Positions 27,799-38,018 of a stretch of DNA of 38,018 nt are shown here, piece after piece. The translations under genes were made by a program, and so were the position numbers. Source of the DNA: Cyanobacteria bacterium SW_9_44_58 (GTDB lineage: Bacteria > Cyanobacteriota > Cyanobacteriia > Cyanobacteriales > Rubidibacteraceae); NCBI GenBank assembly GCA_003021905.1, contig PXPI01000095.1:1-38018 (forward strand), written 5' to 3'. The first letter of the stretch is position 1. Every line of letters begins with the position of its first letter. The notes under the pieces are model-generated. The model did not search any database, was not told the origin of the DNA, and worked only from the letters and a program-made list of their open reading frames with translations.

Positions 27799-28290
27799 CT
27801 AACGATAATTGGTAATTTGCAACGGAATGGCATAATTGGTTTGTTTGAGCAATTGGATTACTTGTTGCAGTTCATCTTTGGATTTACTGGAAACCCTGAC
27901 ACGATCGCCCTGAATGGAAGCTTGTACTTTTTTAAACTCGTCTTTAATTTGTTTGCTGATTTGTTTGGCTAAGTCTTGATCAATGCCTTGCTTTAAATTG
28001 ATGACTTGGCGCACGCGACCGCCACTAGCCGATTCTACTTTTCCGTAATCAAAGATTTTTTGAGACAGATTCCGCTTTGCCGCTTTATTGCGAAGAATGT
28101 CATGGATGGCATCTAAGGTAAATTCACTATCGGTATTAACGACAATTGAGTCTTCATTTAAATCAAGGGTGGTTTTTGAATCCTTGAGATCGTAACGGTT
28201 TTCAATTTCTCTTCGGACTTGATCAACGGCGTTGACCATTTCTTGATGATCAAACTCGCTAACAATATCAAACGTGTAGTTAGAGGCCAT
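27799..28290 (-). CDS. YajQ family nucleotide-binding protein
   Basis: A 163-residue UPF0234/YajQ protein from the ATG at 28290 (a TTG two codons earlier is unlikely). Family blocks are complete: [35 protein letters not shown] and [24 protein letters not shown]. Two ferredoxin-like halves are expected. YajQ proteins bind cyclic di-GMP or other nucleotides in some bacteria; the role in cyanobacteria is untested. It lies 36 bases downstream of the broken MAPEG gene and on the same strand. Confidence 0.92.
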
Positions 28291-28325
28291 AGACAAGATT
28301 GGTGGTGCTCAACAGTAACAGGAAA

Positions 28326-28936
28326 TTAAAGTGAGGAATTAATTTCTAGGATACTCAATCCATAAAGAATCATACTACTTAATGAGCCCAGCGCAAACAT
28401 CAGCGATCGCAGCGGGGGGAGATTGGCAATATAAAAAATCGGATAGAAAAAGCGCCCCGCTACATAAGCAAGGGCCGCCCAAACTGCGAACTGAGAATCG
28501 ACTTGCGTAACATAAGCCATGATAGCTGCCGGCGCATAAAAAATAAACGATTCAAAGGCATTTTGATGAGCCCAAGTTGCCCGTTTGGCGTATGGCGGCA
28601 ATTTCTCCAGCATAGTGCGGGGGGCTTGATAGTCGTATCCGACTTTTGACACTCCCCTGCCTAAAGGCGAGGGGATTCTCGCTTCAACGGGAGAAACTAG
28701 GCGACACGGAACCTAATCCTGACATCACCCCCGCTTCTTTACCCTCAGCGAGCCTTATTCGGGACTACCCGTCCCTACTTAACCTTTATCATATCACATT
28801 ATTTCCCTAAAGGGAGGGACTTTAGACCCGTGATTTTCGGTAAACGAGCCCAGCCCACTACCATAAAGGGCAAATAGATTAAAATTGCCCCGCTTGCCAG
28901 AGAATAAAGCAACACTGCCTGAATCGAAGTTTCCAT
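28326..28936 (-). pseudogene. MAPEG family membrane protein gene split by a mini-element
   Basis: The N-terminal 39 codons begin at the ATG at 28936 (METSIQAVLLYSLASGAIL ... WARLPKITGLK). The rest (VGYDYQAPRTMLEKLPPYAKRATWAHQNAFESF, then membrane segments, to the stop at 28326) resumes at about 28645. Removing a 176-bp insert (28646-28821) joins the two parts in one frame of about 145 codons, the normal size for MAPEG proteins (small four-helix membrane glutathione-transferase-like enzymes). The LEKLPPYAKRATWAHQNAFE block is the family signature. The insert shifts the frame (176 is not a multiple of three) and also offers a GTG start for the second half, so a truncated product is possible but would lack the first helix. 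Confidence 0.9.
28646..28821 (-). mobile_element. 176-bp TnpB-type (IS200/IS605) non-autonomous mini-element
   Basis: A mini-element with no coding capacity. Read on the minus strand, it starts AGTCCCTCCC with the stem CCCT/AGGG. It carries internal hairpins (GGGAC/GTCCC at 28761-28775, TTCTC/GAGAA at 28676-28695) and ends in a hairpin TCCCC-tGCC-TAAA-GGC-gaGGGGA (28653-28674) followed by GTGTCAA. The ends match those of the two tnpB elements in this window, which also finish in TCAA. The flanks show no target duplication, as expected for the single-strand HUH mechanism. It resembles the PATE class that carries TnpB-element ends and guide-RNA-like stems. Confidence 0.85.
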
Positions 28937-28939
28937 GCC

Positions 28940-29452
28940 TTAATCAAAGTAAAATAAGGTGACCAGTTTACGATCTTCTTCTGCTTCTTCGCAGGTTTTG
29001 AGCAGTGTATAGCTGTCATGAAAAGCAAAACAAATCAATTGCTGACAGCGAGAGATGATTTCTCGATTGCACAGAGAACTGGCTTCGGCAAGAGAAAGTT
29101 CCTCTTGTTCTGGATTTTCTACTAAGTGAATCACCTGCGAAAGTTGATCTTGCGATTCTTGCGGTTGTTGTTTTAGGCTTTGGGGCAAAATAACGGTTAA
29201 TAAATTGGGATCGCCGCGCATTGCCCCTTTAATGACCGCAGAATTGGTTCCTGTCGCACCAGACGTAACTAGACGATTCCCCCCTAAAACGAGGGCATAA
29301 CTCATCATTTCAATAAGTTGCTGATGCGTAATGGGAACATGGCGAGAGCCAAGAATAGCAATTCGTTTAGAACCAGTTTGTTGAATTGCTGCCAGTTCTT
29401 GGGTCAGAGTATCCAGTTGGATGGGTTCGGTAGTCGATGTCGATTGAGTCAA
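28940..29452 (-). CDS. DprA-like (SLOG fold) DNA recombination-mediator A family protein
   Basis: A 170-residue protein with a Rossmann-like SLOG core as in DprA/Smf but without the other DprA domains. The fold is marked by RIAILGSRHVPITH, then NRLVTSGATGTNSAVIKGAM, LLTVILPQSL, and the C-terminal LICFAFHDSYTLLKTCEEAEE. Cyanobacterial proteins of this type are annotated as DNA recombination-mediator protein A. Whether it loads RecA or instead binds a nucleotide ligand is unknown. It lies three bases upstream of the broken MAPEG gene, an operon-like spacing. Confidence 0.78.
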   Translation of the reverse strand: MTQSTSTTEPIQLDTLTQELAAIQQTGSKRIAILGSRHVPITHQQLIEMMSYALVLGGNRLVTSGATGTNSAVIKGAMRGDPNLLTVILPQSLKQQPQESQDQLSQVIHLVENPEQEELSLAEASSLCNREIISRCQQLICFAFHDSYTLLKTCEEAEEDRKLVTLFYFD

Positions 29453-32003: not shown

Positions 32004-32210
32004 GCCTGACGGCTATAGTGGGAGATTCCTAACCTCGCGATTAGGCTTTCCTGTCTCTTCAGCTCTTGACTAGGCAATGCCCCCGTCAGATCGCCTCCAC
32101 AGGCAATTTGTTTAACGTCCAACCCCTGCCCGAGGTCAGACAATCCTTCAGGTCTGCGATCCTCGCTCCGCTTTCCGATGCGCGGGAAACCCGCGCTTGG
32201 CTCAGACCTC
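31983..32210 (-). ncRNA. Candidate TnpB guide (omega/re) RNA region
   Basis: TnpB elements produce a guide RNA from the 3' end of tnpB through the right end. On this strand the region holds a nested hairpin (AGGTCTG/CAGACCT at 32150-32209 around GCGCGGG-aaa-CCCGCGC at 32180-32196), a stem CCTAA/TTAGG (32028-32045) and the terminal right-end hairpin. CGAGGTC (32204-32210) could alternatively pair with GACCTCG (32131-32137). The guide would be the flank beyond 31983, that is, the interrupted small gene. Existence and extent are inferred. Confidence 0.55.
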
Positions 32211-33336
32211 GATTTCTTATTACTTCCGCAGACACCACATCTCTCGAACCAACATAACCGCATTCAGGACAATGATGAACTCTTACATCTAGAGTTTTCT
32301 TACCTGTATGCGCTCCACACTGAGAACACTCTTGAGATGTCCCATCTTTATCAACTTTGGCAAAATAAACATCTCGCTTGAAGCAGACCCACTGAAGGAT
32401 GTTGACAAACTGCCCAAAGCCAGCATCCGCAGTGTGCTTAGACAACATCCCTCGTTGCCAACTGCGGAAATTGATGTCCTCGACAAAGACCATTCCAACA
32501 CCATCACATAAGTGGTGCGCCAACTTGAAGTGCCAATCCTTGCGAGTGTCTGAGATGCGTTGATGGAGTCTTGCTATCTTGCGATTCAGTTTATGGCGAT
32601 TGTTTGACCCCTTTTGTTTGTTCTTTAGCCTGCGTTGGAGCAATTTCAGCTTCCGTTGCAGAGATCTTAAGAATCGGGGGCGCTTTACCTCTAACCCGTC
32701 GCTAGTAGCAACAAACTTATCAAAGCCCAAATCCAAGCCCCTAGGATGTCCGTGGGGGAAAGGTTGGGGCACCTCCACATCCAATTGGAGAGACAGCATG
32801 ACAAAGTAGCCGGAAGCCTTACGGACAACTCTGGCCTGTTTGACCTGAAACCCCTCTGGAATTTCTCTTGACTTTCTGAACCTTACCCAACCTAGTTGGG
32901 GTAGCTTGATTTGATTCCCTTTAACTAACTCTTTCCCTCTTAGTTGAGGGTAAACGTAAGACCTAAACCGATACCGATTCTTAAACCTGGGGAATCCTAA
33001 GCCTTTCACCTTCATCGCAGCAAATGCTCGATCAAGCGTTCTCAAGACTTGTTGTAGAACTTGGGCATTGACTGATTTCAGGCGTGAATCGGTTTTCTTG
33101 GCTTCGGTTAAAGCTTTGGCTTGTTTGTGGTAGTTAGGGTAAGGTTCATCAGCAGGGATGATATATTCCTGTTGAATGGAGCAAGCGTTAATGGGCGACT
33201 TGCGGGAGTTGTGCCAATCTTTTCTTTCCCTTAGAGCAAAATTCCAAACCGAACGGCAGACTGAGAGCGTATGCTCGATCATGTCAATCTGCTGTTGATT
33301 CGGCTCTAATTTGTACTCGTAGGTCAGGGTAAGCAT
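32086..33336 (-). CDS. tnpB: TnpB family RNA-guided nuclease
   Basis: A 416-residue TnpB from the ATG at 33336 (MLTLTYEYKLEPNQQ, the usual start); a TTG at 33351 is less likely. The RuvC triad is complete: D202 (GLDLGFD), E286 (VFVEDINF) and D366 (GSRDVVSAE, where relatives often have DRDVNAA). The zinc finger has four cysteines (C337, C340, C356, C359; CSQC...CPEC). The helical insert with KQKGSNNRHKLNRKIARLH is typical. TnpB cuts DNA under guidance of RNA from its own right end and keeps the element in place. It looks intact and so may be active. Confidence 0.93.
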   Translation of the reverse strand: MLTLTYEYKLEPNQQQIDMIEHTLSVCRSVWNFALRERKDWHNSRKSPINACSIQQEYIIPADEPYPNYHKQAKALTEAKKTDSRLKSVNAQVLQQVLRTLDRAFAAMKVKGLGFPRFKNRYRFRSYVYPQLRGKELVKGNQIKLPQLGWVRFRKSREIPEGFQVKQARVVRKASGYFVMLSLQLDVEVPQPFPHGHPRGLDLGFDKFVATSDGLEVKRPRFLRSLQRKLKLLQRRLKNKQKGSNNRHKLNRKIARLHQRISDTRKDWHFKLAHHLCDGVGMVFVEDINFRSWQRGMLSKHTADAGFGQFVNILQWVCFKRDVYFAKVDKDGTSQECSQCGAHTGKKTLDVRVHHCPECGYVGSRDVVSAEVIRNRGLSQARVSRASESGARIADLKDCLTSGRGWTLNKLPVEAI

Positions 33337-33417
33337 TGGTTGTTTGCGCAATTACTTAGGTTAATCATAACCTAAATACACAGTTTTGTCATTTGTGTAC
33401 GATTGTCCTAACGGACT

Positions 33418-37045: not shown

Positions 37046-38018
37046 TTGACGACTCCCCTTCCTTCTAGGAAGGGGATTCTTCCTTCATCCAGCGATGCCA
37101 CCAAAAGCAGTGCCTTTAGCCGGTCTTACTCGCTGTCCAGAAGCTGCTGCGACGCGCCCCGCCGCCTGTCTTGAGTGCGTCTTGCATTTCGAGGTTTCCT
37201 CGAAATTACGCACTCGCAAAATCCGTAACCCTTCATCTCGAATGTTTTTAGCTGCGTTAACGTCTCTATCGTGTTGAGTTCCACAGCTAAGGCATTCCCA
37301 ATTTCTGATTTCTAGAGGTAGTGAGTCCACTTGATGCAAGCAGTGATGACAGGTTTTAGAACTAGGAAAGAATCGGTCAACCTCGATATAGGTTTTCCCT
37401 TCCCATTCCGCTTTGTATTTGAGCATGGTTAAAAACTGTCCCCAACCGGCATCGCTAATCGATTTGGCCAATTTTGAGTTGCGAACCATGTTTTTTACTG
37501 TCAGATTTTCCACCACAATGACTTGGTTTTCATCAACTAAATTGCGGCTTAGTTTGTGGCAAAAATCTTCACGGCATCGTGTGATTTTTTCATGAACTTT
37601 AGCTACTTTTACCCGCGCTTTTCTACGGTTATTGGAACCCTTTTGCTTACGGCTAAGTTCTCTTTGTTTGTTGGCTAACTTCTGTTCATACTTTCGATGG
37701 TATTTGGGACTGCCATGCTTACTCCCATCGCTGGTAATGGCAAACTCGTTTAATCCTAGGTCAATTCCAATAGCTTTCCCATCAGCGCTTTGCTTTGGCT
37801 TTTCTTTGCCATCATCAAATAGACAACTGGCATAGTACTTCCCGGATGGCGTTTGAGACAACGTAACCGACTTGAACTGACCTTCCGGTTGTCTAGAGAC
37901 TCGACAATAGACTCTCCCGAACTTGGGCAGTTTTAAGTAGTCGCCTTCCATTTTGCAACCTTGAGGGAGTCTTAATGATTGACGGTTCTGTTTCTTTTTG
38001 AATCGGGGATACCTTGCC
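37046..38018 (-). mobile_element. Second tnpB IS200/IS605-type element (partial, leaves the window)
   Basis: The right end is a perfect hairpin CCCCTTCC-ttcta-GGAAGGGG (37055-37075) followed, on the minus strand, by GTCGTCAA, matching the TCAA ends of the other two elements. The left end is beyond the window. A candidate guide-RNA region (37046 to about 37220) holds a nested hairpin: GAGTGCGT/ACGCACTC (37173-37215) around TTTCGAGG-ttt-CCTCGAAA (37187-37205). Confidence 0.8.
37085..38018 (-). CDS. tnpB: TnpB family RNA-guided nuclease (partial, N terminus outside the window)
   Basis: At least 310 residues of TnpB are visible; the frame stays open from 37951 to the right edge (ARYPRFKKKQNRQSLRLPQG precedes the first in-window ATG), so the protein starts further right. 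RuvC residues are present in IGIDLGLNEF, VIVVENLTV and HDRDVNAAKN, and the zinc finger CHHC...CLSC is complete. It belongs to a different TnpB branch from the 32086-33336 gene: identity is limited to motifs. The C-terminal tail after KNIRDEGL is basic and Ala/Gly-rich and overlaps the presumed guide-RNA scaffold. Confidence 0.93.
   Translation of the reverse strand, partial: ARYPRFKKKQNRQSLRLPQGCKMEGDYLKLPKFGRVYCRVSRQPEGQFKSVTLSQTPSGKYYASCLFDDGKEKPKQSADGKAIGIDLGLNEFAITSDGSKHGSPKYHRKYEQKLANKQRELSRKQKGSNNRRKARVKVAKVHEKITRCREDFCHKLSRNLVDENQVIVVENLTVKNMVRNSKLAKSISDAGWGQFLTMLKYKAEWEGKTYIEVDRFFPSSKTCHHCLHQVDSLPLEIRNWECLSCGTQHDRDVNAAKNIRDEGLRILRVRNFEETSKCKTHSRQAAGRVAAASGQRVRPAKGTAFGGIAG

Follow-up and report, generated by a model that had tools for sequence, protein, structure and literature searches.

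A gene-less insertion in a cyanobacterial MAPEG gene that appears to carry a TnpB guide-RNA scaffold

What is the DNA that interrupts the MAPEG gene of Cyanobacteria bacterium SW_9_44_58, and does it carry anything besides its own ends? In the window analysed here, a stretch of 38,018 nucleotides at full length, an earlier note had described the two parts of one MAPEG gene on either side of a non-coding insert. Frames and Pfam bear this out: on the minus strand, an N-terminal frame falls within 28799-28936 and a C-terminal one within 28326-28652, the latter matching positions 27-128 of the 129 of Pfam MAPEG (88.3 bits). The interrupted gene is the sole MAPEG match in the genome (2.94 Mb, 136 contigs). 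Querying 40 genomes, this one included, with the MAPEG 3' part gave a match in 19. Among the five other members of the genus searched, four have a match, and the alignment with close relatives proposed in the note shows an unbroken gene in all four; the 85% complete genome G004 gave no match to the MAPEG 3' part. The note had also named two observations that would speak against an interruption, namely relatives with the same spacer and no continuous frame, and a homologue in which the inserted bases are a conserved part of the gene. We encountered neither.

The comparison with the four relatives (L051 to L054) fixes the boundaries. The extra DNA amounts to 194 bp (28646-28839, minus strand), with the left end at 28839 and the right end, TCAA, at 28646, and the same ends are common to the other copies of the element. 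The MAPEG 5' part thus occupies 28840-28936 and the 3' part 28326-28645, both on the minus strand, as indicated by the relatives and the joining of the flanks and, for the 3' part, also by Pfam. Read along the gene strand, the site is TTTAC|AAGTCGG; CGAAAATC opens the element and GTGTCAA closes it. Moving the cut by a single base in either direction destroys the site match, as read from the sequence. Removal of the 194 bp leaves 417 nt, a frame of 138 codons collinear with the relatives and equal in length to L051, L052 and L053; it reads ...WARLQVGYDYQ... across the join, where L053 has RLQIGYDYQ. The interruption reported in the earlier note is therefore real, but its boundary and its "exact reconstruction" are not: the insert had been given as 176 bp, with one end off by 18 bp. 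That cut is wrong yet preserves the frame, for the sole reason that 18 is divisible by 3; its product, ...WARLPKITGLKVGYDYQ..., carries six extra residues present in none of the relatives. The 18 bases left in the gene, TTAGACCCGTGATTTTCG, are the left end of the element and recur, exact or altered, in other copies; the 24-mer TTACCGAAAATCACGGGTCTAAAG has 13 matches in the genome at three mismatches or fewer, versus none for the reversed control. Precise excision would rebuild MAPEG, as had been claimed, if 194 bp were removed, and would not with 176 bp.

The empty sites also decide a more prosaic reading, that the insert is normal gene sequence or a self-splicing element. The uninterrupted relatives refute it, the dispersal of the copies speaks against it too, and no Rfam intron family matches at E ≤ 1; we found no point in its support and give it practically no chance. 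The same sites confirm the reported absence of a target duplication. The motif there is TTAC in L051 and L052 and TTTGC in L053 and L054.

The element was inserted 3' of TTTAC in sense orientation relative to the MAPEG gene. Upstream, 3 bp before MAPEG, lies a frame (28940-29452, minus strand) with a below-cut-off match to Pfam DNA_processg_A, and 29 bp after MAPEG lies a DUF520 frame (27799-28296, minus strand); the three genes probably form one operon. When the flanks are joined, dN/dS of MAPEG against three relatives is about 0.07-0.10, versus about 0.07-0.11 among the relatives themselves, and because the two ranges are alike the insertion is probably recent.

What kind of element, then, is it? 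A search of the genome for further copies, likewise proposed in the earlier note, returned 21 matches to the 176-bp query, self included, of which ten (the window copy among them) span 153-176 bases: the insert belongs to a dispersed repeat, with nine near-complete sister copies. The copy at L002 is 91% identical to the query insert. Eleven copies in this genome and one in G004 could be delimited at both ends, and all 12 are preceded by TTAC, end in TCAA and have differing flanks; this uniformity is partly by construction, because the search pattern favoured TTAC and required end-like sequence, and the MAPEG empty site is a proof independent of that pattern. In the window copy the tetranucleotide, presumably the TAM of TnpB, occupies 28840-28843 (minus strand). 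With flanks joined, 4 of the 12 copies fall within a stop-to-stop frame of at least 90 codons. The half element on C72 (L011) was left out of the alignments, and the internally deleted copy on C127 out of the RNA alignments.

Close to its ends the element has subterminal hairpins, TCCCTCCCTTTAGGGA on the left (28804-28819, minus strand) and another on the right (28653-28675, minus strand), the latter forming the 3' part of the RNA discussed below. Subterminal hairpins at both ends, in place of terminal inverted repeats, and insertion 3' of a short fixed motif without target duplication, as seen at the MAPEG empty sites, are features of the IS200/IS605 superfamily. IS608, for its part, has a TTAC target and a TCAA right end. 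A MITE identity was rejected, as the element has neither terminal inverted repeats nor a target duplication. No inverted repeat of at least 12 bp was found in 28500-28950. We also observed that the left-end hairpins of L009 and L010 (C84, C112) and of L185, L201 and L154 (G124) have been enlarged by additional palindromic DNA or overwritten by it; small repeats that target the near-terminal palindromes of PATEs are described for Haloquadratum (PMC3119063).

PATEs are the nearest precedent by anatomy, and the earlier note had called the insert PATE-like, with both ends and internal stems. Those of Haloquadratum are gene-less and present in many copies, with IS605-related subterminal palindromes and no target duplication, and some of them may be core deletions (PMC3119063). 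The present element is likewise gene-less and multicopy, with near-terminal palindromes and no target duplication. On the simplest reading, therefore, it would be a plain PATE, that is, a pair of dead IS605-type ends moved by TnpA, in which any internal structure is a relic of the tnpB 3' end, kept as the copies are young. The lack of genes, terminal inverted repeats and target duplication in PATEs (PMC3119063) fits this reading, as do the lack of inverted repeats around the insert and the existence of close copies such as L002. It has to be weighed, however, against the interior of the element.

The interior looks like a TnpB guide-RNA (omegaRNA) scaffold, apparently complete (28676-28780, minus strand; the model match, 28646-28780, includes the right-end hairpin). 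We built a covariance model, R1, from 12 element copies (ten from this genome, two from G004). The consensus of their interior alignment has 36 pairs, of which 17 are changed on both sides versus 8.3 with shuffled partners, and 96.5% of the cells are paired versus 86.4%; none of 500 shuffles scored as high, a count that, like those that follow, is not a probability, because the shuffles ignore relatedness. Sliding the partners by 1-3 columns lowers pairing to 40-58%. In the ten copies of this genome alone, 97.2% of the cells are paired (89.6% in shuffles), 13 of the 36 pairs are changed on both sides (5.3; 0/500) and further pair types number 27 (23.9; 21/500). When the set is made up of 20 copies from this genome and G006, pairing is 93.4% versus 85.4% and 14 pairs are changed on both sides versus 10.5 (3/500); further pair types, one of five covariation measures, do not exceed the shuffles in this set (355/500). 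Helices 3 and 4 each contain one pair that fails to form in 9 of the 20 copies. The folding of the single insert as DNA is unexceptional (z -1.66), and the element has no Rfam match at E ≤ 1 in a search of 28000-29400. A sub-threshold Rfam snoRNA match on the coding part of MAPEG was rejected as chance.

The homology of this scaffold with RNA at the 3' end of tnpB is evident in both directions. Of 291 genomes sampled from the order, 213 contain an R1 match at E ≤ 0.001, with up to 11 candidates scored per genome. We examined 30 of these loci (L112 to L141, the window copy and L113 included) for tnpB, using an HMM of the TnpBs of this genome. In 16 of the 30 a tnpB frame ends inside the R1 match. 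As for the rest, L117 has a weak tnpB match at a contig edge, and 13 have no tnpB match ending there; one of these, L132, has tnpB downstream, and L120 and L137 are not judgeable because their upstream sequence comprises only 16 and 9 nt. At the tnpB loci inspected, the scaffold follows directly on conserved 3' codons of tnpB, for instance those encoding KERG or KKRG. A second model, R2, built from 12 tnpB-linked RNAs only, has the window insert as its best match (98.6 bits, E 3e-19) and matches 20 of the 20 other mini-elements given (nine from this genome, one from G004 and ten from G006, three of these ten with short scaffold deletions), a reciprocal result that is not fully independent because the R2 members were picked among R1 matches. 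R2 scores only 22 bits on the internally deleted copy on C127 and matches none of the eight MAPEG loci from relatives.

These observations tell against a plain PATE. The scaffold pairs covary among copies that lack tnpB, and the scaffold is more conserved than the spacers next to it, whereas a relic serving TnpA alone would be expected to keep its ends and not its middle. Among the ten copies of this genome, identity is 0.95 in the left end, 0.87 in the left hairpin, 0.75 in the spacer, 0.91 in a -10-like motif, 0.64 between that motif and the scaffold, 0.89 in the scaffold, 0.90 in the right hairpin and 1.0 in the last 7 bases. We thus consider the plain PATE unlikely. The description PATE-like was right in pointing to a gene-less element of the IS200/IS605 superfamily, and understated an interior that resembles a TnpB guide-RNA scaffold.

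Two further parts of a putative guide-RNA unit can be recognized around the scaffold. The first is the position of the guide. In ISDra2, the reRNA is made up of 3'-terminal tnpB sequence, the right end and some 16 nt of flanking DNA (PMC8612924). By the same position, the presumed guide of the window copy is AAGTCGGATACGACTATCAA, the MAPEG codons adjoining the right end (28626-28645, minus strand). When the flanks are joined, the sequence following the scaffold is the one that follows the TAM at the empty site, AAGTCGG after TTTAC, and TTAC followed by AAGTCGG is found as well in the relatives L051 and L052. The second is an extended -10 promoter-like motif, TGATATGAT (28788-28796, minus strand; the -10 itself reads TATGAT), which ends 7 nt before the scaffold. 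TGATATAAT is exact in five of the ten copies of this genome, and in these copies 6-7 nt separate the end of the motif from the first scaffold base, the spacing at which a -10 would place the transcription start there. A consensus scan found no -35/-10 promoter pair. The mini-elements of G124 mostly have TGCTAAACT, a poorer -10.

Could proteins encoded in the same genome act on such an RNA? There are 33 TnpB-domain matches in the genome, several of them broken remnants. One, at C117:26367-27545, lies within an unbroken frame of 420 residues with all three Pfam domains; the protein is 70% identical to that of L118, and its locus has an R1-type scaffold (66.8 bits). Its compatibility with the element is uncertain because both its scaffold and its right end are distinctly unlike those of the window copy (86 identical of 144 aligned columns). 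Unbroken TnpBs with R1-type scaffolds also occur in G006 and G124 (72.7 and up to 91.8 bits; nine of the 19 loci given matched). The window itself contains two more TnpB frames (32089-33351 and 37088-38017, both on the minus strand), the second of which continues to the edge of the window; a divergent match resembling omegaRNA accompanies it at 37046-37169 (R1, 28.2 bits; R2, 39.1 bits). At the end of contig C71, a frame-broken TnpB of the same clade (L046) is cut 25 nt into an R1-type scaffold, which suggests that the assembly breaks at this repeat.

No complete TnpA was found in the assembly: all eight Y1 matches are partial, frame-split, stop-containing or at a contig start, and assembly gaps could hide a complete one. 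In two TnpA copies, L165 (C134) and L166 (C86), the frame seems to be broken in two at a similar position, perhaps by a shared old or a programmed frameshift. We recognized no TnpA frame by eye at the left-end-only matches L085, L090, L095, L104 and L108 (G002, G001), where an autonomous parent was sought. L104 and L108 (G002:C3:35735 and 4130) are left-end remnants on one 45.6-kb contig, with near-identical flanks and the same neighbouring repeat-rich frame, and look like a duplicated segment.

Guide RNAs can also be used by nuclease-dead TnpB to silence genes, as in TldR-like systems. A captured repressor RNA of this kind would fit the fact that the guide position holds the gene adjoining each copy, and the genome does contain broken TnpB remnants. 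At the MAPEG locus, however, the target is split, so that nothing intact is left to repress, and the C117 TnpB looks complete, as judged by its Pfam domains. We regard this explanation as very improbable.

Similar mini-elements occur in two other genera examined. In G006, and equally in G124, which belongs to another family, all 11 of the listed R1 matches lack a tnpB-like frame upstream (about 1.45-1.6 kb checked, 558 bp for L144). The layout of left end, -10 and scaffold is seen in all 11 listed matches of G006, which are preceded by TTAC (6/11), TGAC or TGAT (4/11) or TTAT (1/11). The five with TGAC, TGAT or TTAT (L142 to L145 and L205) may reflect a shifted target motif or a mutated flank. 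TTAC is visible in 7 of the 11 in G124, and the left end is disturbed in L154 and L157. A scan of the genome collection with a 20-base left-end pattern yielded one locus, L162, a short element in a Symplocastrum torsivum MAG. It has the same left end, a different interior and the right end GCGTCAA.

The tnpB-bearing elements of G124 indicate how a mini-element can be related to a protein-coding one. Two of them begin TTACCAAAAATT.TGGGT.TAA.G, with a left hairpin and TGTG(C/T)TAT(A/G)AT, and end GAATCCCCGACCGTTTA(C/T)GGCGGGGAGTTGTCAA. The mini-element L155 (202 bp) and the tnpB element L185 (1394 bp) have near-identical left ends and identical right ends, so that the mini-elements of G124 share their ends with a protein-coding member. 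With agreement in 101 of 137 columns of scaffold plus right end, L155 does not derive from L185 by recent deletion; the plain reading is an older deletion of tnpB that joined the left end to the scaffold. In the genome of the MAPEG insertion, by comparison, the tnpB loci L013 and L015 share only the right end of the element, and their left ends differ.

Did this happen once? In a tree of 44 scaffolds, the copies of this genome and of G006 form one group (94/95, 20 rows) with no tnpB row inside, and six G124 copies group with tnpB scaffolds (82/84); L116, L117, L120 and L125 were kept as "other", and the tnpB-linked L122, L129, L130, L134, L139 and L141 were left out. The label "mini" needs two changes on this tree (bootstrap range 2-4), which suggests, without proving, more than one origin (this genome plus G006 versus G124). 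A single origin is still compatible, because the well-supported branches force only one change; 19 of the 41 inner branches are weak. At the extreme, each mini-element could be a separate deletion from its own tnpB parent, in which case the covariation would predate the loss of tnpB and be uninformative on later function. The tree's hint of several origins leans that way, and such deletions are compatible with the other readings. Yet the copies of this genome and G006 form that single group devoid of tnpB, the copies of this genome share one left-end/-10/scaffold junction, and covariation is present among them. Separate deletion of each copy is thus, in our judgment, improbable.

We therefore favour, as likely, the reading of the insert as a non-autonomous IS200/IS605-superfamily element of 194 bp, of the tnpB-only kind, from which tnpB was deleted and in which the guide RNA was kept, with TnpA and TnpB acting in trans. 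The deletion would have removed nearly the whole tnpB frame, so that the left end, its hairpin and the -10 now immediately adjoin the complete omegaRNA scaffold, followed by the right end. TnpA moves IS200/IS605-type elements as single strands, without target duplication, and TnpB is proposed to cut the vacated site beside the same motif, whereupon repair restores the element (PMC8612924). By analogy, a Y1 TnpA supplied in trans, as supposed in the earlier note, most likely moves the mini-element, and transcription, whether driven by the element's -10 or by the MAPEG operon, most likely yields an omegaRNA, judging by the anatomy. The RNA of the MAPEG copy would have the guide AAGTCGGATACGACTAT... 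and would be directed at the MAPEG sequence that follows TTTAC once the gene is repaired. This RNA could be loaded by a TnpB of the same clade, for example that of C117, which could then cut the MAPEG site vacated by the element; recombination with an occupied copy would refill it. Precise excision would restore MAPEG; the RNA made from the element would counteract this repair.

By cutting vacated sites, TnpB is proposed to prevent the loss of the transposon that encodes it. Should gene-less copies retain a guide RNA that works, non-autonomous elements could make use of the nuclease in addition to the transposase, which would help explain the persistence of minimal elements. More tentatively, and with less confidence than we place in the reading of the single element, we propose that guide-RNA-only transposons, which would have shed both proteins and kept a promoter and a complete omegaRNA under selection, reprogramme a resident TnpB in trans against their own vacated sites, that a single TnpB may in this way enforce the retention of a whole family, and that this state may have arisen repeatedly in cyanobacteria. 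If their guide RNAs work, the ten near-complete copies of this genome would be natural, differently guided tests of TnpB action, and the MAPEG locus, with its exact empty site in relatives, is a clean example. Among the papers listed in a search of the open-licence literature, no title or opening of an abstract describes tnpB-less omegaRNA mini-elements, which is weak evidence of novelty.

Among known systems, the tnpB-only elements of the IS200/IS605 superfamily, presumably the kind labelled "IS1341-like", share with the mini-element the insertion at TTAC, the right end TCAA, the hairpins and an omegaRNA, which in their case overlaps the 3' end of tnpB; both ends are shared as well in G124. 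Unlike them, the mini-element has neither tnpB nor tnpA. Standalone, trans-acting omegaRNAs of IscB were reportedly described by Altae-Tran in 2021; they too are guide RNAs apart from the nuclease gene, but of IscB and not of TnpB. The reRNA or omegaRNA of TnpB has the same build, a scaffold from the tnpB 3' end plus the right end, with a guide derived from the flank, and a comparable length (PMC8612924, PMC10278001). The scaffold of the mini-element differs in being off any tnpB mRNA, with a -10 motif directly before it. The mRNA of tnpB can be trimmed by TnpB itself on the 5' side of the guide RNA (PMC10278001). Peel-and-paste transposition in IS608 and ISDra2 likewise inserts 3' of a short motif without duplication (PMC8612924), and these elements, unlike the mini-element, encode TnpA and TnpB. 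In Anabaena sp. 90, 147 short elements, 15 of them inside broken genes, are MITEs (PMC3542288); compared by their description, these are type II elements with terminal inverted repeats, which the mini-element lacks. The PATEs of Haloquadratum have the same outward anatomy; what PMC3119063 says of them in the portions drawn on here includes no mention of a guide RNA, and the deletion behind the mini-element would, by contrast, have spared a complete guide-RNA scaffold together with its -10.
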